The notes beneath the pieces were generated by a model. It was not told the origin of the DNA, searched no databases, and was given only the letters and a program-made list of their open reading frames with translations. The position numbers and the translations under genes were made by a program. Shown piece by piece: positions 1,794 through 48,389 of a DNA stretch of 64,000 bases; within the stretch, counting starts at the first letter, position 1; each line of letters opens with the position of its first letter. This DNA is from Cristatella mucedo. Taxonomy: Eukaryota > Bryozoa > Phylactolaemata > Cristatellidae. The stretch is from assembly GCA_009760855.2 (NCBI GenBank), contig WPIO01000003.1:13073501-13137500 (forward strand), written 5' to 3'.

Positions 1794-1926
1794 GCATGCA
1801 GGGGCACGAAGCTCGACCACGGCACCATAGTAACCGATGCGATCGGCGACATGGAGGTCGAGCAGAGGAATGCCTATCGCATTCCTTCCGAGGCCGACTT
1901 CCTCATGGCCTATTCCTCGGTTCCTG
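1794..1926 (+). CDS. Caspase copy A, exon with catalytic cysteine (partial gene)
   Basis: Caspases are cytosolic cysteine proteases that cleave after aspartate during apoptosis. This exon follows a TTCACAG acceptor and begins at the codon after the Gln of the QACRG active-site pentapeptide, so it reads ACRGTKLDHG. It then carries TIVTDAIGD, where cleavage after Asp would separate large and small subunits, and YRIPSEADFLMAYSSVPG, the conserved start of the small subunit in caspase-3/7. It ends with one base of a Gly codon before GTAAGCAG. The length is 44 codons plus one base, the same layout as the matching exons at 15953 and 30192. The catalytic Cys is present. Earlier exons of this gene are not in view. 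I am confident of the family, less so of the exact ortholog. Confidence 0.93.
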
Positions 1927-3526: not shown

Positions 3527-3750
3527 GTTTCTACTCGTGGAGGAACTCCAAGGAGGGCTCCTGGTTCGTTCAAGCGCTCACCAAGGAGCTGCTGGAGGCA
3601 GGCAGCAGGGAGATCATGAGCATCATGACGAAAGTCAACTATCGCGTGGCACGCGGCTTCGAGTCGAACGCTTCGCAGCCGTCCATGACCGGAAAGAAGC
3701 AAGTGCCCTGTATCACGACCATGCTTACAAAGCAGCTGTACTTCTTCTGA
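3527..3750 (+). CDS. Caspase copy A, terminal exon encoding the small (p10) subunit
   Basis: The exon starts after a TTTCAAG acceptor and completes the split Gly codon of the previous exon. It reads FYSWRNSKEGSWFVQALTK. SWRN is the loop that forms the S1-S3 substrate pocket of effector caspases, and its Arg contacts the P1 aspartate. The exon ends with KKQVPCITTMLTKQLYFF and a TGA stop at 3748-3750. The PCI..MLTK.LYF ending is a caspase-3/7 hallmark. All expected small-subunit motifs are intact, so copy A looks catalytically competent as far as it can be seen. No clear polyadenylation signal was spotted directly downstream. Confidence 0.95.
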
Positions 3751-10752: not shown

Positions 10753-11008
10753 CTATGATATCGCCTGTAGCTGCCGGTTGAAGTTTTCTGTAGCGTCTTA
10801 TGTGTGGCCAGTCGCGTTCGTGCGAGTTCACCGCGTCGCGAGTTCATTGCAGCACCATATGGTGTCTTTAGTGCGTGTGATAGTGGGGGCGCATGCCCGT
10901 GGCTTCGCCTGTCTGCAGCTGCTGGTTAGCTGCCGTTAGATGGCGTTAGACTGCGTGACTCCAAATGAGCGAGCGCCGAGTTTTCCTTTTTGTCTGTGTC
11001 TGTTTCAG

Positions 11009-11268
11009 CAGTGGCCTGTGTGGGCGGGTGCAACAGGCTGCAGCCGCACCCTGCGACGATCGGTACTACATGAGCCATGGAAACCGTGGCATAGCAATCA
11101 TAATAAACAACAACGACTTCCGTAGACTCAGAAGGATAGTATCAGAGCGTGTTGGGTCGGCAGGCGACGTGGCTGCATTAGAAAAGTGCTTCCAATGCCT
11201 TGGATTCAGTAAAGTCATAATTCAGAATGACCTGACTTGCACACAGATTCGGACTCTGCTTGCCGACG
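11009..11268 (+). CDS. Caspase copy B, first recognised large-subunit exon
   Basis: A strong pyrimidine tract ending TGTTTCAG precedes the exon. The first base completes a codon, the same phase as in copy C at 25115. It reads YYMSHGNRGIAIIINNNDF, the first beta strand and IINN loop of the caspase p20 fold, then SERVGSAGDVAALEKCFQCL, matching SRSGTDVDAANL of caspase-3. The Arg that helps bind P1 aspartate appears kept, but the GTD that follows is altered. It ends one base into a codon before GTAGGTGG. An upstream exon with the start codon must exist and was not found. The exon is open and family membership is clear, but the protein is probably not an active protease (see the exons at 15953 and 18554). 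Confidence 0.9.
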
Positions 11269-12519
11269 GTAGGTGGGCTGTGGCGCCTGACTGCTTGCTA
11301 TGCCTCTTCCACCTGCTTGCTATGCCCTCAGTTGGCTGGCACTGGGAAATTATAGCTTAGCATGAATGTCAAGATGAAGATGCAACATCGGACTCTCTCA
11401 TGTCCTCTTTACATGATCCACTACTACTGTCCAGTCTCCCATCTTCTTTTTTGTCTGTAAAGATTGTTGCTAAGTAGCTTGGCGCTACTCACTTCCTCAA
11501 CGGCCCTTCTGACTCAGGCTTTCTACGGACAATCAATTAGGTGTCTTATTCCTAGGCCTAAAGACTTGGGCAGACCGCACGATGAAGGCAGGGGGCAGTG
11601 GCAGCCCAGGGGCAGCAGCCCCTTCTGTCCACACCGTTCTTCTTAGCCGCTAGTCTCACTGGCCACTGTGCCGTATCCCGCCGTATCATTTGCCTACTGC
11701 CTTCTTTGCCGTCGCACTAACGTGTGGCAGTCACGAGCCCAGTGCACTTCAGCCCGTGCTCCACCTGTGCTTCACTCCAGGCTGTCAGAGACCTGTTCTT
11801 TACCACCGCCAGCTCGTAAGAGGATTCTGATGAGTCTCAGTCTTATTTTTTAATCATCTTCATAGCACTTCCTAGTGGGGCTACGGGCATCCACAGTTTT
11901 AGCTGCCAATGGCTACCTGTCCTTGGTAAGCCTTTGAACATCTCGAATCATAGTCCTCATTTATGAACTCGTCTAGTTCATAGCGATTTTCCTCCCTATC
12001 GACACTTTACTGGTCATAATCCAAATCCTCTTGTCAGCAGAACTTTTTCATTCCTGTGAAGTTTGTAACCCATCCGCTGTACTTTCTTAAATCTTTCGTA
12101 GATCATCTTTGTCACAATTGCTGAATTTGACAAAGGTCATGCAGTCTTATGAGTTTCGACAGTTTGACCATGAGAGTGGCTTTCTCTCCTGCTTGTTTTT
12201 CTCGCGGTCGTCTGCGATAGTTATACGTCCATGCTGCTCACTCTGCTCTTTTATTCCTGATGTATTGCGATACAAAACTGGTACTCTCTCACTCTTTGGT
12301 AATTTTTAATTTTGGCCTTTTTCCAGTCAAATTTAATTAACAACTGTGTGTGCATTTTGCCAATTGCATTTACATTTGCGTTGCTCACTTCCTGTTGGTC
12401 AGCGGCAGGTAATTTCCTTATGAGATTTGACAAAGAATCAAAAGCAAATTGTGTGAGTTTGCTGTCCATCGTTTGCAATGTCCTTAGCTGCAGTTTTATT
12501 TCCAGTTCCTATGTTGCAG
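11269..12519 (+). other. Intron of caspase copy B
   Basis: This is a 1.25-kb phase-1 intron. The segment near 11490-11525 (CAACGGCCCTTCTGACTCAGG) resembles a LINE tail also seen near 33020. Otherwise nothing is recognisable. Confidence 0.7.
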
Positions 12520-12692
12520 TGGCAAGAATGGACCATAGGCACCACGACATGCTGGCATGCGCCGTTCTGACTCACGGTGAAGAAGGCAAGATATTTGGTG
12601 TCGACAACAGCATGCCTGTGGAGGATCTACTTGCGCCGTTCAAAGATCCTTCCTGTTCTCTCATGGGGAAACCGAAGCTCTTCATTATACAA
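12520..12692 (+). CDS. Caspase copy B, exon with catalytic-histidine motif
   Basis: The exon follows the acceptor ATGTTGCAG and reads DMLACAVLTHGEEGKIFGVD, then LMGKPKLFIIQ. THGEEG matches the SHGEEG motif of caspase-3 that holds the catalytic His. His and Gly are kept and Ser has become Thr. GKPKLFIIQ is nearly identical to effector caspases and leads directly into the active-site pentapeptide. The exon ends exactly after the Gln codon, before GTATGCC (phase 0), as in copy C. The length is 57 codons plus two bases. Confidence 0.93.
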
Positions 12693-12806
12693 GTATGCCT
12701 AGCATTTGTGTGGTCTCACTTTCCATGCTTGGCAACGACGCATGGCTGGCTTCAAGTACTTGTGCCAGCATGTGTGCATGCACATGCTAGCATACATTTT
12801 TTTCAC

Positions 12807-12906
12807 GTGCGAGTGCATCTTCATGTTTGAGAGATTATCTGCGTGTGCGTGTGCGCGTGCGCGCGCACACGCGGATAATCTCTCAAACATGAAGATGCAC
12901 TCGCGC
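12807..12906. repeat. Long intronic inverted repeat (hairpin)
   Basis: A left arm of about 41 bp beginning near 12807 (GAGTGCATCTTCATGTTTGA and onward) is matched by its reverse complement ending near 12906, with about two mismatches. An alternating GT/GC purine-pyrimidine tract forms the loop. It begins 115 bp after the histidine exon of copy B. Confidence 0.85.
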
Positions 12907-12929
12907 ATGAGATGCACTCGCGCGTGCGC

Positions 12930-12932
<3 letters not shown>

Positions 12933-12979
<47 letters not shown>
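12933..12979 (+). repeat. TG dinucleotide microsatellite
   Basis: An uninterrupted GT/TG run of about 47 bp lies directly next to the hairpin right arm, within the intron of copy B. Confidence 0.97.
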
Positions 12980-12980
<1 letters not shown>

Positions 12981-13043
12981 TGCCTCTGTCTCTGAGCACG
13001 CTGGTGCACTTTGGTGCCTTAGCGCGTGTATGTTTATGGCTTT

Positions 13044-13061
13044 GAGAGGGAGAGGGAGAGA

Positions 13062-13128
<67 letters not shown>
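13044..13128 (+). repeat. GA dinucleotide microsatellite
   Basis: GAGAGGGA units pass into a pure GA run of about 85 bp in the intron of copy B. The apparent open frames across it are low-complexity artefacts. Confidence 0.97.
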
Positions 13129-13130
<2 letters not shown>

Positions 13131-13989
13131 GTGAGCTGGAGCAAGTGCATGGTTGCATGAGTGCAGGCTCGCTCCCTGGCGTCCAGGCAGTGCTTCGGTG
13201 GTATTCTGAACAGCTGCCTATGAGAGACGCGCTACTCCTTTGCTGCACTGCTGTTTAGTAAGTGCGCCCTTGTGGGCATGCGGGCAGGCTTAGCTACAGA
13301 TGACTCATAAGAGTATGCAAACGACGTGCACGCACCTGCATGTGGATGCAGCTGCCCAACCACTGGTCAACGGTGGCTGGATTTTTTCAAGCGTTAAGGG
13401 TACATGAAAGTCAGGCGAATCAAGCCTGCCGGTCAATTTACTATGTTAAACTAATGTACAACCATTGCAGTGCACCCTGGGCTGCAATGGGCTGCAAGCA
13501 TAATGTTTTGATCCTGATGGGACGAGTAGCATGGGTGGCCATTTGCTTGACTTCCTGCAGTGTGCCATTGCCCAGCTTAGCTGGCTGGCCGATGTGCAGG
13601 CTGAAGCCGGCAAAATGTGTACCTTATCTAATAATAACGTGTATAATGAAGGATGCTTACAGTGCGCCAAGTGAAGTAAATCAATTTTTAGGCACTGTAC
13701 TTATGCTGGAAGGAAGGGAGGAAGGTGCGTTGTCAACCCACGCGGGAGCAGCCAGGTGATTGATTGGGGGGGAGGAGACCTTGCGTTCGTGACTGCAGTG
13801 CTCAAGGCTGTAGAGCAATGGCAGTACCAGTGCATTCGTGATGGCATGAAAGGTCCAAGGAATTATGTGCATGAAAGGTCGAAGGAATGCGCAATACAAA
13901 ACTCTCCTGCTTAGCACCCACATAGTCTTTATGGGTTTGCGGAGTTACAGACGGAGATACATTACATTGTTTGTCGTGAGCATCGAAGT

Positions 13990-14250
13990 TGCCACATCAC
14001 TTCTCGCTGACCTGCTTCCAATGAAGCAGCATATTGACTTCAAGGTTCTCTCACTCACTTTTAGGTCCCATCATTCTGTGGCTCCAGCCCACCTATCAGA
14101 ACTACACCTCCACGAGGCTAGGCATCGTACCACTTGCTTTTCTGAATCAAATCGTTTAGCTATACATCATCCGAACCTTAAGTCCTTTGGAGACCGTGCA
14201 TTCAGTGCGGCGTATGACAAGCCTGGCTGCAGAGTTTTGCACAAACTGTA
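13990..14250 (+). mobile_element. LINE retrotransposon, C-terminal fragment
   Basis: The plus frame reads IDFKVLSLTFRSHHSVAPAH, then LSELHLHEA, and then SFGDRAFSAAYDK. This pattern (short-stretch IDFK..L, AP.HLSELL, FGDRAFS.AAP) is the well-known C-terminus after the reverse transcriptase in CR1-like and related LINEs. No intact RT precedes it, so it is a 5-prime truncated insertion. Confidence 0.75.
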
Positions 14251-15952
14251 AGTGTCTGATTGCACAGGCCGATAGACCAACAATCTGTGAGTTACATTCG
14301 TCGAGACAGGATGTTACCATGGACTAACCAGATAATGTTATGTCAGTCGGAAGTGAGTACCATCCTTTAGGAGCATTGGAACTGAAGATATGGAAGTATT
14401 TAAAGCTCTTTAGAGGCACGATTCAAATAGCTTAGTCAAAAGAGCAGAAGAAGCAATGGGAGGCTTGATGATGTTAAACTAAGTCAGGTTAGTAGGCTTG
14501 AGCAAGAGAATTTCGTGTCACCCACAGTTGAGTGACAGAATCTTGATCGGCTGCTCGATGCTCAGCAAAAAAGCTGAGTCACCTGCTGCTCATTCAGCAC
14601 GTGACTTTGCCCGTAAGCAAACGCGTAATTTTCTAGACTTCCAACAGCTTTGAATCGGCAGGTTATTGCTAAATGTATGGCTAGCTTCAAATCTAGCCGA
14701 TAGCCGTGTGCTCCCACCAGTAGCCAACACCGTGCTTTCTACAAGCCCGAGTGACCTCGCTGCCGAATGAGTGTGTGTACACGTCGTGGCTGGTGAAAAA
14801 AGTGAGTGATGCTGTTTTTTGTGCTTTCCTTTACTTGCCGAACTGATGCTGCATGCGGGCTACTGCTCAGCCGTGGCAGAAGTTAGTCGGCTGGTGGCTA
14901 GTTGAGCACTCCCACCTAGCCAGCAGCAGACAAGTGTCTACCGTTTTGCTGTGCTGTTTCATTCCCGGGAGTTACTCTATATCGAACTGCACAAAATCCT
15001 TTGCACAGTTCCTATGTAAATGAGAGCAAGAATTAGGCTTGTATGCAATCAAGAGTTAAGTAGCTCATGACTTTGCTCACCTATGTCCAATTTGTCCACA
15101 GCCACTTAAGAAGTTACAAGGTAGCATCGTGGTCACTGAGCACGGGTGAGTGCTCAGATGCATTGTGTCTTCATGTGCTGCTTGATTCTCGATCGCGACC
15201 CTATGAAACGAATGCCTGGCTAGCACGTGATCAGAGATCAACGTCAACGAAGGGTGCACCGCAGAGCGGGTGAGGTTATTCATCCTCTGCCGTTCGTGAT
15301 CGCCAACTATTTGTCAGACTGCACTATCAGACGTAGTCCGTAATCTCAAAAACCGTTACTTTGTTTTGTTTGCTTGCAATTGATTTATTCGCCAGCCTGC
15401 CTGCCTATCGCCAGATCTTCGACACTGTCGGGGTGATGGCCGTGGGTGTAATGATAGTTTAGAGTGAGTCCGACCGGCCAGTCCGATGAGGTGTGGGTTT
15501 TTCTACCCACTAAAGTTTTGTGCCTCCTCGCCCCTTTAACCGCGGCTCTACTTACCGGTGTCACATGCGACATCCTCCCTCGACACGGCCCCTCTCGGAC
15601 CAGTTTGGCTCTCGGCAGAGTCGTTTCGGTCGACTCTCTCAACCACTATTGGTTGCTCGGCAGCTCACTTGAACGGCCTCGTCGGCTTTTGCTTGCTGTG
15701 CTGCTGCTGCTGCCAGTCAGCTCCGTGCCGTGGATGCATGCATTATTGGCCTGCCATCGCCTCGTTTGCTGGAGTGGAGGCGGTCTACCGGCTGTCTAAA
15801 GCTGTGTTTCAAACTAGTAAAATAGCAAGTGCAGCAAATGTTGCTGTCACTTGCCCATAGTGAGTCCGGTATGCTGTCAGTGCTAGCCCTCGGCTCGTGG
15901 CAGCTCGAGAGAGCTCTCTAATGATCGCTTGATTTTTAAATGATGTTTGCAG

Positions 15953-16091
15953 GCCACGGACCAAGCACAAGGCCTCATCGTGACAGATGCCTTTGGGGAC
16001 CATGAGCCACCCATGGGTATAACTCCCACTAAATATTCATACCTCATACCGACAGAAGCCGACTTTCTGATCGCGTATGCGCCAGCATACG
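15953..16091 (+). CDS. Caspase copy B, active-site exon lacking the catalytic cysteine
   Basis: The exon begins after ATGTTTGCAG at the same phase-0 position as the ACRG exons of A and C, but it reads ATDQAQGLIVTDAFGDHEPP. The next residues after Gln should be Ala-Cys-Arg-Gly. Here they are Ala-Thr-Asp-Gln, so the nucleophilic Cys is missing. The frame is fixed by LIVTDAFGD and by YLIPTEADFLIAYAPAYG, which align well with A and C. The inter-subunit aspartate site (IVTD then Ala) is kept. It ends one base into Gly before GTTAGTCG, as in A and C. The length is 46 codons plus one base. There is no stop or frameshift, so this is a diverged coding exon, not an obvious pseudogene. Confidence 0.9.
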
Positions 16092-16274
16092 GTTAGTCGT
16101 CCGGCATGTGCTTATGTGCTGCTATAGCGGATGCTGAATCTGAGATACTATCTCACAGGCTCTAGTTTAGTGCACTGTCTGCGAATAATTGAGTTGTTTC
16201 TCTCACCTCGTTGTAATGTGGGGGAGTGTTTTGTACCAGTAAAAAATGATGCCTTTGGAAAAACAGAGCTCCCA

Positions 16275-16440
16275 GTTTCGATGGCCGAGGAGATGAGGTG
16301 CTTGTCTTTCACGACCGAGGTGGCTGGTTTGAATCCTGTAGTGGGCGATCCTTTATGCTAGCTGCAAGCAGTGGTGATAGCCGTTAAGGCTCTTCTGCCA
16401 CTATGCAAGCAAGGCTGTTAAATCAGCTAAATATTTTCCC
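16275..16440 (+). mobile_element. SINE family a (tRNA-derived)
   Basis: The copy contains CACGACCGAGG, then the B-box-like GGTTTGAATCC, then GTGGGCGATCCTTTA, GCAAGCAGTGGTGATAGCCG and AAGGCTCTTCTG, ending GGCTGTTAAATCAGCTAAAT. The same order occurs at 50224, 51902 and 60291. The tRNA-like head is diverged. Confidence 0.75.
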
Positions 16441-17771
16441 CAGATAATCTGCTCATCTTTTCCCGAGTCTATCCCTTGCGATATGCCTGGCTGGCAACCG
16501 GTGGCCTATTGAAACGCGTGCATGTCAAAGCAGCTAGATTACGATCGTGCTCTAGATTATTAGTGGTTACTGAATTTTAACGGTTAAGAGCCCGATATGT
16601 CCTAGTTAATGGTTCAGTCGTTATGAAAAGTCATTTTAGAGAGTTATGAGAAGTCATATTAGAGATAAGAGAGACTTGCACTTCAGGCTTCGAAGCAGTC
16701 AGTTGTACGCTATGGCTGGTGTCGTATACACTTCTTTCACTTAATTGCCACTCTGTGGCTATGGAATAGACTGTTTTATATTAGTGTCTTGACTCATTAT
16801 GTTAAGGTATGTGTGCTCTTGGTTCCCGCCAGGCTCTGCTAGCGGCAGCTTATCTGCATATGTTGATTCAGCAACTAAGACTTGTTAGCCGTGCTTCAAG
16901 GGGCCAGTTCTAACTATATTAATGGAGCGTCTGTAAGGACCAGATCCGGTACCTGCACTGTGATTGTGACCTAGGGACATTAGTTTAGGAACCTCCAGAG
17001 CGCTTTGGGAACACTTCTCACGGTGCATGTGTAGTAGTGCTGATACTCTTAAGTTCATAAACCTTTTAATTTCCTCGGCTCACAGAAAGAGCCATGGAGT
17101 ATGTTTTGCTTTCGAAACGTTATATGTGTGAAGACAAATTTAGGCAAATTTAAGGCAAATTTATATGAGTAGACTAGGTCTTTGTGCCAGTCAAGAAAAC
17201 AAAGAAAAATTACAGCCTTTCTAGAAGTGCTTCTATCCTAGCCCTGAACAGGCCTCGATCTCTCCCTCTCAGTATTCACTATTCTCTCAGTAGCTTTATT
17301 ATTGCCATTATTTATGAAGTTTAATAGATAGACAGCTTAAGCAAGTTTTGTGTACAGATTTGGCTTCCTAGTTCTTTCTGGGTACTTCGATCGAGCACGT
17401 GGGTGGCTATATTTCAGCACTAAATCTTGACCCTGAAAGATTACACGAAATTGCAGTTTTGCATTGCAGTGTGTCGCATACTGCTTTCCTTCCCATCCTG
17501 TGAACCTAGACGATCATTAGGTAAGGACTCGAACCCACGACCTGGGTCGTGAAGTGCTCCCACCTTATCTTAAGCTTTGTGTCATTAGTGAGGCATTTGC
17601 TGAGCTTTGACAGCCCAATGCTTCCGCAGTTCTTCTTCACTCTGTTTCTGTTGTAGAGTTTGCTGGGGAGCTTTCCGTGCGATGCTGAGTGCCGTTCTCC
17701 TTCGTTACTTATTGTCTGCAATAGCTATGCATATACAGAGATTCAGTTCTTTGAGAGCACTTCATCAAGTG

Positions 17772-17799
<28 letters not shown>
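17772..17799 (+). repeat. ATT trinucleotide microsatellite
   Basis: About nine ATT units lie in the intron of caspase copy B. Confidence 0.95.
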
Positions 17800-17802
<3 letters not shown>

Positions 17803-17837
17803 CTCACCCTGCTCTGTTTTTTCCGGATACATTGCTA

Positions 17838-18188
17838 TGAATGACTTGCCCGGCCACAATCCGTTGGGGGTGGGGTTAGCGATTGTCTGATTGGTTGTCT
17901 CTGGCCGTACGGAAGGCTGCCTCAACCAGGAATGACTGCTCGTGACAGCACTCGACGAAGGGCAGGAAGCCCTGCTGCTGGTCGGAGAGCCAGAAACCTG
18001 CCCAAATGTGGCCAGCAAGTCTCTCTATGCCAGGGCAGAAGACAGTAGCGTATACAGTGTGTCGTCAGCCTAGTAATCGGCCTCAAGTTTCTTGCTAGGA
18101 AGCCGTCGACCTGCTTGTGGAATAGGATGGTCGAGCCAACCTTCCATGACCGAGGCACGGTGCTAGTGTTAGGGCATGCATTGAGCAC
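17838..18188 (-). mobile_element. LINE reverse-transcriptase fragment, frameshifted
   Basis: On the minus strand one frame gives PRSWKVGSTILFHKQVDGFL, then NLRPIT, matching the P.SWK.G.TI..HK.GD....N.RPI block of LINE reverse transcriptases. A second frame continues with LSDQQQGFLPFVECCHEQSF, matching the S..Q.GF.P..GC.EH block. The change of frame shows decay. Confidence 0.7.
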
Positions 18189-18553
18189 ACTATTTTGAGG
18201 CGATAGGTTGGATCAAGTGAATGCAAAAGTCCGTATTCCATGCAGTCTGCCCTGAGTGAAATGTTATGCGCTGGATGCAGACACGCTGAGAATTCCTCCT
18301 GCGTGAAAGAGCTGACTCCGGCATCACAGGGTACATGCTGTCAAGGAGAGCCTCTAGAGCCTGCAGAGCCGTCGGTGGCTCGCCTGGCTGCCTCTGCCGC
18401 TCAGAAGTGAATGCACTGGCGATGATTTATCTGCTGTTCTTGCACCATTGCTGGTTTACCATGAACAGGCAAGACGTGGCACCATTGCCATATATGATCT
18501 CTGCTTTATTGTGTCGTGATTTTTACTTTCAATTGGCATTGGCGTGTTCACAG

Positions 18554-18774
18554 GCATTTACTCCAGGACAAAGGGCACCCGATTCATCAGGCATTTGGCT
18601 GCTGAGCTTGAGCAGATCGGCAACCGGGAAATCATGCAGGTCATGACCCGAGTTAGTCGGTTCGTGACGGAGGAGAATCAAGCTGCTGCTGCTGGGCAAT
18701 CGTCACTGCAAATCAGCCCTGGAATGGTGCCATGCATCACGACTATGCTCACCAAAGACCTGTACTTCGACTGA
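18554..18774 (+). CDS. Caspase copy B, terminal exon (p10-like) without the SWRN motif
   Basis: The exon follows GTGTTCACAG and completes the split Gly codon. It reads GIYSRTKGTRFIRHLAAELE, where A and C have F(Y/F)SWRN. The Trp-Arg-Asn triplet of the substrate pocket is gone through substitution and a two-residue shortening. It then has NREIMQVMTRVSRFVTEENQ, and ends PGMVPCITTMLTKDLYFD with TGA at 18772-18774. The conserved PCITTMLTK.LYF end and the helix EIM.VMTRV show that the fold is probably kept. Along with the missing catalytic Cys, this indicates a pseudoenzyme. An AATAAA lies near 19342. Confidence 0.93.
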
Positions 18775-20711
18775 AGCTGCTTGATGTCTAATCTGTGCTA
18801 CTCTCTACCTGTAGCTGCACCTGGTCTCGACGGCCAGCAGTCTGCACACGACCCTCTGCCTGCCTTGGATGCGGCCAATCATTTGGCGTTTGCAGCCTGT
18901 ACATGTCACCAACCTCTGCCTCGACAAGTAACTCCTGCATGCACGTGTTCGGGAAACCCTTTAATGCAACGCTGCATTCTTGTGACCTGTACCTGATCAG
19001 ATGCTTACTAGGAGTCTTTGATAGCGTGCAGACTTAATTGAAGGAGCTGCTTCTGCTACGCTGCTATGGAATCAGGGTGATTCGGATGGCGGGTTACCCG
19101 AGATTGTGATTGCCAGTTCGCTTTCGTTCATGTTCCTTCAATGCCCTTTAACTCCGGCAGTTGGGCATACGGGATTTCCTTTTTTTCTCTTAGCACTAGA
19201 GCAAATGCACGTCAAGTTTGTTGTCATGCTTACTGTGATACTTACTCTGTTTATACTTCTGTGTTTGCAATTCATTGTGAATTCCATATCACGCACACAG
19301 CCGATGTCGTTTTTCGCTGCACATACGCGCGGTTTGCCAGAAATAAATGCAGCACCATTTACTCCATACCGGTTTCCTACCGATGACGCCTGCCAGTGCT
19401 GCATTGCTTGTTCATCTTGTCAGCAGCAGCTTCTAACCATTGTAATTATTATCTCCATCTTCAGGCCTTGAGTTTAAAGCTTTCACAGCATAATTACTCT
19501 TACTGATGTCTGATGGGTGGTTTCTTTTCTTTCATAGCTTTAAAATAGAACTCGGACATTGTTGACACTAGTACACTCTGTTGAATGCTGTGAATCTGTT
19601 GTCTTAAACCGATACTAGGTGTCAATCGGGATAACGTAGCTATAAGCATGGGCTGATGCAGTTATGCAGCTTGCTATGACGTAGGAACATGTGTCCCGAG
19701 TAGACTGCACGAAAAATTTGATCGGAAGGCACTGTGCCAATCACTGGACCGGCAACCCCGAGATAGGCAGGCAGGCTACCAGGCCCAAACGTCCTCATTG
19801 GCTGGAAGGCTCCCTTACTCAGAGGAAGCTCGCTGGAGCATGGCCTTAGGGCGACCAACAGGCTGCCACTGACCTTTTGGCACAGCTGGGGCCATCACCT
19901 CTGCTCTTTTACCATATCCAAGGGGGAGTTATTTGCCTCCTTTCTCTACCAATCGAGTCTCACTCAACAGTCTCCTTCTCATTGACGGCTGCTTCTGACT
20001 CACCGGCTGTTGATGCCGTGATAGCAGCCGTTGCCTCGAAGACTGCTGCATCACATCCGGTAGCTGCTTCATTGCCAGTCACTACCCATAGCTGACTTGA
20101 GGCTATTACTCTCTTGTCACCACAACCGGCCTTCTCTCCCGGTCACATCTGCCGGTCACTCCAGCCCGTCTAACCGTCAGCAGATCAGGGAGTAGCCGTT
20201 GCTTCCTAGCTGCCGGGGGGGGGGAGAATGTCCAAGGCTTCTCTAAGCCTTAAGCACTGTTGATTACCTTCGACAGCATGAAGGAGTATACATCGAAGGT
20301 GCTTCCTTCCAGGATGGGAGGCAGATATTGTGCCGATCTGATGGATTGACATCTCACAGTTTGAGCCTCTGCTTCTTGAGAGTCCAGCAGCCAACTTGCA
20401 AAGTCATCACCTTCCCATTTGTATGCTTACCCTATACATGTCAGCTCTAACCTTGTTAAGCTTCTTGACATTGAGCATGCTACTACTAACCATTCGATCA
20501 TGCTTACTTTGTAGCAAATATGAAATGCCTATAATGAGATGAAGTTTTCTGAGGGTGCTATGCAAATGTATTATTATTATCACTGACGTAAAAGCATTGT
20601 AACAGCCTTGCTGTAAATCAGCCGAAATAGCTTGTAGCATGAATTAAGCACTGCCCAGCAGCAGGCTTTACTGACATATTTATTCTCCACCAGGCTCTGA
20701 GCTGACATATA

Positions 20712-24822: not shown

Positions 24823-25114
24823 AACTTTGTGCCCGACGATCGGCATGGCTGCAAGCAGAAGATGCGGCTTGGAAAAACTATTCGGTAGTCGCGCCATTGC
24901 TCCGTGCTGCCATTGCTGATCGATTCCTAAACCAACGCCCACGGTGCTGCCAATCCACCCCTGCTTCTCTGCTCTTTTTTGTCACACAGGCTTAGGCATA
25001 GCACTGTTACGCTTTTGATGACGTTTGCTTCATCCGTCAGTGAGGTGCACCGTATCTGCTTCTTGTGCATCCCATCCCATTCATCAGCCTCGCCTAATTT
25101 TGTTTCTTACAAAG

Positions 25115-25404
25115 TTTCACGGCCTCTGCAAACGTCGGCCCACCATTGAATGAAGGCCACCTGTCCACGAGGCAGCATGCAGCACCTACAGCCAATCCCC
25201 GCTATTGCATGCAGTACAAGAGTCGTGGAGTAGCCGTCATCATCAACAATATGAAATTCAACCCAGCCCTGAAGCTGGATGAACGACGTGGGACCGACTT
25301 TGATGCAATGAACCTGCATAGTTGCTTCGGACATCTGGGCTTTTCGAACATAAGAACCCACAAAAACCTAAAGTGTGATGACATCAGGAAGCGTCTGAAT
25401 GAAG
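25115..25404 (+). CDS. Caspase copy C, first recognised large-subunit exon
   Basis: The predicted acceptor is TTTCTTACAAAG at 25103-25114. The in-frame stop at 25095 forces an intron border after it, and the phase matches copy B. The exon reads YCMQYKSRGVAVIINNMKF, then DERRGTDFDAMNLHSCFGHL. RGTDFDAMNL corresponds to SGTDVDAANL of caspase-3, and the preceding Arg is the P1-binding residue. It ends DIRKRLNE plus one base before GTAAACG. The frame holds 96 codons between the split codons. About 30 residues precede the conserved fold, so the start codon lies in a further upstream exon I could not find. Confidence 0.92.
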
Positions 25405-29245: not shown

Positions 29246-29421
29246 TGGCTTTAACGAATCACAATGACCATGCCATGTTCGTCTGCGCTATTCTGTCACA
29301 CGGTGAGCTCGGTAAAGTCTATGGGACCGATGGGTTGATGGAGCTGCAGGAGATAGTCGACATCGTCAAACGGGGCAACAGCAAAGGTCTAGCAGGAAAA
29401 CCAAAGCTGCTCATAATCCAG
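29246..29421 (+). CDS. Caspase copy C, exon with catalytic histidine
   Basis: The exon follows GTGCTTGCAG and reads HAMFVCAILSHGELGKVYGT, then LAGKPKLLIIQ. SHGELG contains the catalytic His of the caspase Cys-His pair. GKPKLLIIQ ends exactly at the Gln of QACRG, before GTACAC (phase 0). The length is 58 codons plus two bases, one codon longer than in copy B. Everything expected of an active effector caspase is present. Confidence 0.95.
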
Positions 29422-30191: not shown

Positions 30192-30321
30192 GCATGCAGG
30201 GGAGAGCAGCTCGACGGTGGCGCCATTGTGACCGATGCTGTCGATCCACGGACTATCAGGCAAAGGTCTTACAGAATTCCGGTTGAGCAGGACTTTCTCA
30301 TGGCTTATTCGAGTACACCGG
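30192..30321 (+). CDS. Caspase copy C, exon with catalytic cysteine
   Basis: The exon begins after TCTCCTAG and reads ACRGEQLDGGAIVTDAVDPR, then YRIPVEQDFLMAYSSTPG. With the preceding Gln this gives the canonical QACRG with the catalytic Cys. AIVTD then Ala is the predicted inter-subunit cleavage site. It ends one base into the Gly codon before GTAAGCATG, exactly as in copies A and B. The length is 43 codons plus one base. Confidence 0.95.
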
Positions 30322-31397: not shown

Positions 31398-31630
31398 GCT
31401 TCTTTTCGTGGCGGAATCCGAGCAGCGGCTCGTTTTTCATCCTCGCTCTCACCGAGGAGATGAAGCGGCGCAGCGGCAGCAGCGAGGTGATGACCATTCT
31501 GACCCGGGTCAATCAGCGTGTGGCATACGAATTCAAGTCGAACACGGTAGAGGAGAGCACGCGAGACAAGAAGCAGATGCCCTGCGTCACGTCGATGCTC
31601 ACCAAAGAGCTGTACTTCACCAATGCGTGA
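31398..31630 (+). CDS. Caspase copy C, terminal exon encoding the small (p10) subunit
   Basis: The exon starts after CGTTTGTCAG and completes the split Gly. It reads GFFSWRNPSSGSFFILALTE, then SSEVMTILTRVNQRVAYEF, and ends KKQMPCVTSMLTKELYFTNA with TGA at 31628-31630. SWRN of the S1-S3 pocket is intact. The end PC.TSMLTKELYF is almost identical to caspase-3. Together with the exons at 25115, 29246 and 30192 this gives a complete catalytic domain with no visible defect. Confidence 0.96.
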
Positions 31631-36129: not shown

Positions 36130-36980
36130 TTATGATAATCTTGCATTACGTCGGCCGGCTGATCACCCCAACCGCGTTTTGCATTATCACTCAGATACAC
36201 TGGCACAACATTATTTAATGGCAACGCAATCTTTAGCCTCGCTAGAGCCTTCTCTAACGTCAGAAGCCAAGGTATAAAGTGCCCTCCACCGTTAGCAATT
36301 TTCTACGCTAGTATGGGCGTCCCCTATTGGCCATAGAAGGTCTGGTACTGAGAAGGTCTGGTTCTGACGTCGACATACATGAACCCGTAATGCCACGGAG
36401 TAAGAACGATTCAAAATTCTTCATTCCTACTGGGGTTTCATTTAATTGATGACACTGCACCTGATCGCAGTACGAGTGGGCTGTGACACTCGATGTGGTA
36501 AGCAGCCGGGACGGGCCATTAGTGATTGTTATGACAAGGGAGTCGGGGACTCCGGTGGGCGAGAGGGGCGAGGTGAGTCGTGCTTCGCCCTGCTCCATGT
36601 GTAGGTGAAATAAACTGATGGTTTTGCTCGTCGGCTAGCGTTCTGTGCCGTTCGCGACGATAACTCAGAATACCCCCTACTCTAGTTGCAGGTCCCTTGC
36701 TGTCAGCACAATAGACTCGTAATTCCTTAATGATGGCCTACTAACAAAGAGCAGCAGCTGCAACGCAGTTAAGCACACCTTCGTATTGCAATACTGTGTC
36801 ATGTTCGAAGATTAGCAGTCCTATAGGACGACTGTATGGGTTAGCAGCTGGATATCCAGAAGAGTGCTCCAGCCCATCGTGCATAAGTGTGTGAACAGCT
36901 TTTACTCGAGGAATTCCATATGTCTTGTGGACGTTCTACTGATTACTATGCCAGTCTTTTAAGCTTCTATACAGCTACAG
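36130..36980 (-). mobile_element. Unclassified interspersed repeat, copy 1 (interrupted)
   Basis: The nucleotide sequence closely matches 47440-48020, for example at GGCCGGCTGATCACCCCAAC, AAGCCAAGGTATAAAGTGCC and CCAGTCTTTTAAGC. On the minus strand it encodes GWGDQPADVMQDYHKLCFDL, so it is a piece of a coding mobile element. It is split at 36432-36676 by another insertion. The family is not recognised. Confidence 0.75.
36432..36676. mobile_element. 245-bp insertion with 5-bp target duplication
   Basis: The insertion is flanked by CTACT on both sides (36427-36431 and 36677-36681) and has inverted ends GGGGT and ACCCC. Copy 2 of the host repeat is uninterrupted at the same place (CATTCCTACTCTAGTTGCAG near 47711), so the empty site is directly visible. 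It contains AATAAA at 36609. The size, the 5-bp duplication and the polyadenylation-like signal fit a solo LTR. A MITE is also possible. Confidence 0.8.
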
Positions 36981-47399: not shown

Positions 47400-48389
47400 C
47401 TAGGCAAAGTGAACGCACATAATGACTGCCAGTTTGTGGTAATCTTGCTTTACTTCGGCCGGCTGATCACCCCAACCGTCCAGGTACAGTGACAAAACAT
47501 GATTTAACGGCATCGTAATCTTGAGCCTTGCTACAGCCTTCTCTAACGTTAGAAGCCAAGGTATAAAGTGCCCTCCGCCGTTAACCATTTTGTCCGTTAG
47601 TATGGCGTCCCATATTGGCCATAGAAGGTCTGGTACTGAGAAGGTCTGGTTCTGACGTCGATATACATGAACCCGTAATGCCACGGAGTAAGAATGATTC
47701 CACATTCTTCATTCCTACTCTAGTTGCAGGTCCCTTGCTGTCAACACAATAGACTCGTAATTCCTTAATGATGGCTTACTAACAAAGAGCAGTAGCTACA
47801 GTTCAGAGAAGCACATCTTCCTGTTTCATTACAGCGGTAGCTGTATGGTGTTCGAAGATTTGCAGTCCTACAGAACGACTGTATGAGTTAGCAGCTGAAT
47901 CTCTAGAAGAGTGCTCCAGCCCATCGTATACCAACGCGTGAACAGCTTTTACTCGAGAAATTCCATATGTCATGTAGAAGTTCCGGTGATAACCATGCCA
48001 GTCTTTTAAGCCTAGATTAAGCCACTGGCGAATTTTATGCGGGCTAAGAACTCTTGCCAAGCTTACTATGCCTGCTATCAAACACGATTTCACATTGGTG
48101 TACGAATTAACAAGCGACGACATCTACCAAAAGGCATAATTGCAAGTGCTTTCGGGATGGGTCGATGGAAACGCTTTAAGCGGGCCTTTGATCCTCGTTG
48201 TCTTCACTTCCACATTTGCAAGCTTAATTCTGCACACGAGTCCTGATACCTTGTTTAGCTCTCCCAAGAATATTTTTTTCCGTTCGCTTAAAACGTCTCG
48301 CTTACCTAAGTGACTCATTGCCTCCCAAGACTTTACCATGATGCGTTTGGCACTTTGACTAGGGTCGTTAAGCTGTGCACGTAACCAAT
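47400..48389 (-). mobile_element. Unclassified interspersed coding repeat, copy 2
   Basis: The minus strand carries three successive open frames that read as pieces of one broken coding unit. At 48389-48124 is RIMVKSWEAMSHLGKRDVLS. At 48123-47803 is LKDWHGYHRNFYMTYGISRV. At 47705-47400 is LLWPIWDAILTDKMVNGGGH, then GWGDQPAEVKQDYHKL. The last two match copy 1 (36130-36980) closely at DNA level. I do not recognise the family. The first segment also has splice-like borders (48250-48389), so it might instead be a cellular exon. Confidence 0.6.

Follow-up and report, generated by a model that had tools for sequence, protein, structure and literature searches.

Why should a tandem row of caspase genes hold, between two active-looking copies, one that lacks the catalytic cysteine? 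This arrangement is found in the bryozoan Cristatella mucedo (assembly GCA_009760855.2), in and just upstream of a stretch of 64,000 nucleotides of contig WPIO01000003.1 (G000:C332:13073501-13137500), which we call the window. Three caspase genes follow one another there on the plus strand as copies A, B, and C, with copy B in the middle. Copies A and C both contain the His-Gly pair, the QACRG motif, and SWRN, and they look active. We found that the pattern of loss and retention in copy B fits an old, selected pseudocaspase better than it fits a decaying pseudogene, and that, judged from the sequence, the gene is probably a regulator of its active neighbors and not a dead gene. Our preferred but tentative reading, to which we assign a probability of about 0.45, is that B is an activity-tuning heterodimer partner, in the first place of copy A.

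Copy B has four open exons, bordered by AG acceptors and GT donors and joined in phases 1/0/1. The same phases occur in copies A and C and in D, a caspase gene on contig C11 of the same genome that served as the outgroup and that has one extra intron upstream. The original prediction, that the splice sites and phases of B match those of the other copies and that all four of its exons are open, is thus confirmed. The joined B protein matches the whole of the Pfam profile Peptidase_C14 (PF00656; profile positions 1–233; 8.1e-40, 137.4 bits); copy C scored 200.7 bits. When B was compared with PDB, the best 60 of 210 matched sequences were all caspase-7 or caspase-3 (apopain), with a best score of 146.9 bits, and copy A matched caspase-7 at 267.3 bits. 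By sequence, these matches make B an effector-type caspase. The 5′ end of B is placed provisionally. Translation could start at an in-frame ATG at 10965, which would prepend MSERRVFLFVCVCF... (window 10965-11008), by eye similar to a signal peptide; these bases are probably an acceptor, as they also make up a pyrimidine tract plus CAG. A search for 5′ exons by comparison of the three upstream regions gave just weak, chance-like matches, and a profile search detected no DED in the B exons that were read, the 5′ exons not having been located. Retention of intron 2 of B would yield a p20-only protein.

The catalytic cysteine is missing from exon 3 of B, which begins ATDQAQGLIVTDAFGD, whereas its counterparts begin ACRGTKLDHGTIVTDAIGD in A and ACRGEQLDGGAIVTDAVDP in C. 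After the Gln of the active-site segment, A has ACRGTKLDHGTIVTDA, C has ACRGEQLDGGAIVTDA, and D has ACRGTKLDRG, and B has ATDQAQGLIVTDA. It had been proposed that B reads QATDQ where its neighbors read QACRG. The loss of the Cys stands, but replacement residue by residue does not: the MAFFT alignment places a three-codon in-frame loss of Cys-Arg-Gly in B, with the following Thr retained. Because no Cys is present anywhere in exon 3 of B, the nucleophile did not move within that exon. A pattern search of the intron at 12693-15952 found neither AG/GCNTGY...GG nor AG/NNNTGYNNNGG, and so no replacement Cys exon of that form. A QACRS in frame 2 at 13421 was considered as a hidden Cys exon and rejected, because no AG immediately precedes its Ala codon. 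Genome-wide searches covered 572 Mb in 688 contigs. Among 21 scored matches, near-identical ones occurred solely at the four B exons themselves, the others being paralogs or weak, and none of the best candidates was a further copy of B whose site is intact.

Damage to B extends past the Cys into the substrate loops, which had not been noted before. The roles of loops L1–L4 are those assigned in caspase-3/7 structures. In B, L3 reads SRTKGTR where A has SWRNSKEGSW; it is three codons shorter (the gap follows the first Ser) and both Trp residues are gone, and it is ambiguous whether its Arg corresponds to the old pocket Arg. A and B are identical at 12/46 positions in L1–L4 and at 112/201 elsewhere; the corresponding values are 26/46 and 106/201 for A and C, and 29/46 and 90/201 for A and D. 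Among the sites identical in A and D, B is altered at 20/29 in the loops and 19/90 outside them (p 5.5e-6), whereas the active-looking copy C is altered at 8/29 and 26/90 (p 1). Among those identical in A and C, B is altered at 16/26 in the loops and 32/106 in the rest (p 0.0055), and D at 5/26 and 42/106 (p 0.067). The difference persisted at sites shared by A, C, and D when each three-codon loss was counted as one event (9/17 versus 10/64, p 0.003; counts collapsed by hand). By sequence, B retains the His-Gly pair (in LTHGEEG, identical to A), the loop-1 Arg, IVTD followed by Ala, and the strand MVPCITTMLTKDLYF. We take IVTD to be the inter-subunit cleavage site and this strand, β-8, to be the dimer strand. 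The alignment also places a five-codon insertion in B after the IVTD cut. The absence of the Cys, the loss of the L3 pocket residues, and the best solved-structure matches to caspase-7 all support the earlier description of B as a catalytically dead effector-type paralog, as far as this can be read from the sequence.

In a tree of seven caspase proteins of this genome, which included no caspase-8, A, B, and C formed one clade (95/95) and B grouped with A (81/82). Recent tandem duplication was considered and rejected: the repeats of at least 80 bases between 3700 and 35000 are all microsatellite-like, mostly GA/TC. As the units share no long repeat of another kind, the array looks old.

We then considered whether B has been under selection. 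Where A, C, and D share the same nucleotide, B has another one at 24/99 first, 20/131 second, and 22/38 third codon positions. Leave-one-out counts for C (24/99, 14/125, and 14/30) and D (31/106, 23/134, and 25/41) have the same shape. In a codon maximum-likelihood analysis (four taxa, 235 codons, best-scoring topology), the dN/dS ratio (omega) on the B branch was 0.065, and a fixed value of 1 was rejected as the branch average (twice the log-likelihood difference, 2dlnL, 19.7); the estimate is loose because four of the five branch lengths were at the upper bound. A grid gave A–B omegas of 0.12 outside the loops and 0.24 within them, with deleted codons omitted and t at the grid edge. The grid replaced the pairwise omegas for all three A–B comparisons and for A–D over all sites and over the rest, and t was at the edge except for the A–C groove. 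Relative to A, B has exon 2 shorter by 3 bases, exon 3 longer by 6, and exon 4 shorter by 3. The protein alignment contains six internal gaps (+1, -1, -3, +5, -3, and +2 codons), which are whole codons by construction, and homology is in frame on either side of them. We found no broken frame, no lost splice site, and no neutral decay over the whole length of B. The codon-position bias, the branch omega, the whole-codon differences in exon length, and the loop-restricted erosion support the view that B is not a plain pseudogene; none of them dates the loss of the Cys.

Effector caspases work as dimers: once the linker has been cleaved, the segment behind the cut in either half supports the active site of its partner. 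In B the cut site, the dimer strand, and the post-cut segment remain, and the parts needed only for catalysis are gone; its simplest use would be as a silent partner of A in a heterodimer. We propose a caspase-3/7-like paralog from which the nucleophile and much of the substrate groove disappeared long ago while the fold remained under selection. Such a protein would most likely be expressed in a zymogen-like form and be cut at IVTD, before the Ala, by whichever initiator processes A and C. The dimer strand in its p10 subunit would then allow assembly with a neighboring active caspase, copy A being the first candidate, and the heterodimer would contain a single functional active site, which the cut linker segment of B would support in trans. 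B could thus tune A, acting as an enhancer when A is limiting and as a cap when B is in excess. The role suggested at the outset, a dimerizing inhibitor or activator of the neighboring caspases, is consistent with the retention of the cut site and the dimer strand.

Several observations weigh against B as a tuning partner of A. The loop borders were chosen after the alignment had been inspected, and the loop contrast is weaker when gap columns are left out (p 0.0005 for L1–L4, 0.09 for L1–L3, and 0.11 for L2 and L3). Conservation of β-8 does not differ significantly from that of the rest of the protein (p 0.27). The branch leading to B is long (0.89, versus 0.15 for A), and the codon model prefers a topology with A+C and B+D (lnL -3193.9) over one with A+B (-3202.0), contrary to the protein tree; long branches are perhaps responsible for this conflict. 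The omegas are rough because of saturation at synonymous positions (t at its bound), and they average the time before and after the loss of the Cys. The exon-2 donor of B (window 12690-12698) reads CAA/gtatgc, whereas A, C, and D have G at position -1. Finally, the sequence does not separate an activator from an inhibitor.

The last point bears directly on the rather unlikely alternative that B was selected as a pure dominant-negative inhibitor, which would poison the dimers of its neighbors or compete for initiator cleavage at IVTD. The retained IVTD and dimer strand suit such an inhibitor as well as they suit an enhancer, and in C. elegans csp-2 and csp-3 are reported to inhibit apoptosis; the same account adds that the effect of csp-3 on ectopic death was not reproduced (PMC3591282), and the characterized mosquito decoy is described as an enhancer (PMC4840389). 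It is likewise rather unlikely, although this and the inhibitor are the main rivals of our reading, that B was silenced recently, having long been active as a diverged caspase before the Cys was lost, and is a pseudogene that has not yet acquired a stop. The long B branch and the averaging of omega along it leave room for such a history, as does a simulation on the copy A coding sequence in which 30, 60, and 81 random substitutions kept the frame open with P 0.40, 0.16, and 0.09. With 162 substitutions (half of the 324 A–B differences), however, the frame stayed open in only 1.6% of cases (P 0.016). Moreover, B carries separate lesions in its substrate loops (Cys-Arg-Gly, L3, L1, and L4), whereas elsewhere it is no more altered than C (19/90 versus 26/90). 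Separate loop lesions in an otherwise constrained protein require a long period after the loss, unless the loops had first shifted toward a new specificity, and it is this difference between loops that eroded and a scaffold conserved to the same degree as in C that argues for selection after the loss.

Two further explanations would separate B from its neighbors or from its own last exons. B may be a selected noncatalytic protein that does not act on A or C, such as an IAP sink (through the new N terminus AFGD), an adaptor, or a binder of uncleaved substrate. Once cut, its p10 subunit would begin with Ala and a bulky residue, which we take to be a loose resemblance to the IAP-binding motif. 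This explanation appears improbable, because A and C would likewise expose AIGD and AVDP, so that AFGD is nothing special to B, and because the loss of the L3 groove speaks against substrate binding. We consider it more improbable still that exons 1 and 2 of B contribute to read-through or chimeric transcripts that continue into exons 3 and 4 of C and encode an active enzyme, exons 3 and 4 of B being seldom used. The common intron phases of A, B, and C would allow such joins in frame, and the atypical exon-2 donor of B would favor them, but in exons 3 and 4 of B the frame is open and the scaffold portion conserved, a poly(A) signal may be present at 19342, and the join would have to bridge 17.5 kb. 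Regulation by pairing, the preferred reading, is directly testable with three proteins, A, B, and C. To our knowledge, few effector-type pseudocaspases have been studied. Here a dead effector caspase is flanked by two sisters that look active and share its intron pattern, and what it discarded (the substrate loops) and what it kept (the His, the cut site, and the dimer strand) are both visible.

Table 1. Positions of the caspase exons and elements discussed in the text (window coordinates unless a contig or locus is given)
Feature	Position	Strand	Remarks
Copy A core exon 1	G000:C332:13070182-13070392 (upstream of window)	+	Start placed at core, not a mapped exon border
Copy A core exon 2	G000:C332:13070926-13071101 (upstream of window)	+	
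Copy A exon 3 (ACRG)	1794..1926	+	
Copy A exon 4 with stop (SWRNSKEGSW)	3527..3750	+	
Copy B exon 1, caspase core, p20 start	11009..11268	+	SERVG retains loop-1 Arg; pyrimidine tract and CAG just before
Copy B exon 2, catalytic His-Gly (LTHGEEG), KPKLFIIQ	12520..12692	+	His at 12573-12575; donor CAA/gtatgc
Copy B exon 3	15953..16091	+	QA, three-codon gap, TDQAQG in place of QACRGTKLDHG; no Cys
IVTD of copy B, presumed inter-subunit cleavage site, then Ala	15977..15988	+	Common to A, B, and C; absent in D
Copy B exon 4 (p10) with stop	18554..18774	+	
Loop L3 of copy B (SRTKGTR)	18562..18582	+	SWRNSKEGSW in A; from alignment
Presumed dimer strand β-8 of copy B (MVPCITTMLTKDLYF)	18724..18768	+	13/15 identical to copy A
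AATAAA, possible poly(A) signal of copy B	19342..19347	+	
Copy C exon 1	25113..25404	+	5′ end tentative
Copy C exon 2 (LSHGELG)	29246..29421	+	
Copy C exon 3 (ACRGEQLDGG)	30192..30321	+	
Copy C exon 4 with stop (SWRNPSSGSF)	31398..31630	+	
Intronless CARD and caspase open reading frame, site ESSQG	L021:2697-4172 (G000:C518)		
Intronless CARD and caspase open reading frame, site EASRG	L022:3048-4631 (G000:C111)		

Copy B is not the only caspase-like gene in this genome without the Cys. Among 30 PF00656 matches we found at least three more, two of which are intronless CARD genes. These two open reading frames (ORFs), on contigs C518 and C111, encode a CARD and a caspase domain and are the two best whole-domain PF00656 matches in the genome. 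Both have Ser in place of the Cys and Glu in place of the preceding Gln, and they are sisters in the tree (100/100). The omega between them was 0.14 (95% upper bound 0.18; 2dlnL 122.9; t at its bound), from an optimizer that did not converge on five other pairwise comparisons. If the Ser is common by descent, the two ORFs have been maintained as dead proteins since they split, a parallel to what we propose for B. The best solved match of the C518 ORF was a chain named JF1cpCasp2 (126.3 bits). Judged from these features, the C518 and C111 ORFs are likely to be selected initiator-type pseudocaspases. In the gene near C288:3.85 Mb (L018, reverse strand), both catalytic residues are replaced (SSNGG and ARRG) and the acceptor before ARRG is intact; because a TGA lies within one of its exon matches, this gene may be decaying. 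Together with B, these genes suggest that dead caspases may be part of the normal control of cell death in this animal and not a curiosity.

A few observations concern other parts of the window and the assembly. Two near-identical coding-like stretches (EGLVLRRSGSDVDIHEPVMPRSKNDS...) lie at window 36336-36443 and 47624-47719; they gave weak tblastn matches and are perhaps a dispersed repeat. An Rfam search of the window returned no match at gathering scores. On L046 (G000:C688), COX1, judged by eye at conserved positions, reads sensibly under the mitochondrial code of invertebrates (TGA as Trp, AGR as Ser, AAA as Lys, and ATA as Met), and a stretch that by eye resembles ATP6 lies directly upstream in the same reading register. 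The assembly holds five more COX1 matches, spread over four other contigs; three have an internal TAA or TAG, and some may be nuclear copies.

B is of a kind already known: caspases that are inactive or act as decoys have been described from mosquito, worm, coral, bivalve, and human. In the manner of a decoy caspase such as CASPS18, B combines a caspase fold that lacks the nucleophile with a close, active-looking paralog. Bivalves resemble this bryozoan in having expanded sets of caspases, some of which lack the His or the Cys and are predicted to be inactive (PMC7836458). In Acropora caspase-X, an inactive domain that lacks both His and Cys is thought to modulate an active one within the same polypeptide (PMC4715348), whereas B is a separate gene and retains the His. 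The C. elegans paralogs reported as inhibitors of apoptosis differ in other ways: CSP-3 is described as lacking the active site and CSP-2 as retaining the motif VCCRG (PMC3591282), unlike B, which has both subunits. Aedes aegypti CASPS18 resembles B in being an effector-type caspase without activity, derived by gene duplication and with an active paralog, CASPS19, whose activity it is described as enhancing (PMC4840389, PMC3141678). CASPS18 and CASPS19 are, however, described as homologs of Drosophila Decay, and orthology to B is not expected.

A mechanistic comparison can be made with human FLIP(L), an inactive caspase fold whose gene, like B, shares its chromosomal region with active paralogs. 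FLIP(L) is described as being cleaved in its linker by its partner, caspase-8, and as acting in a heterodimer with one active site (PMC7586951); a one-site heterodimer is what we propose for B as well. FLIP(L) is a caspase-8/10-type protein with tandem DEDs; B, by its best 60 of 210 PDB matches, is a caspase-3/7-type protein, and its exons as read contain no DED. A bolder version of the comparison, somewhat unlikely in our judgment, is that B matches FLIP(L) at the executioner level, from a gene placed between those of its partners. Having given up its groove and catalytic Cys but retained the IVTD site and the dimer strand, it would be co-processed with A and form obligate one-site heterodimers. 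With the two intronless CARD pseudocaspases at the initiator level, it would give this lineage a two-tier control of cell death by pseudocaspases.

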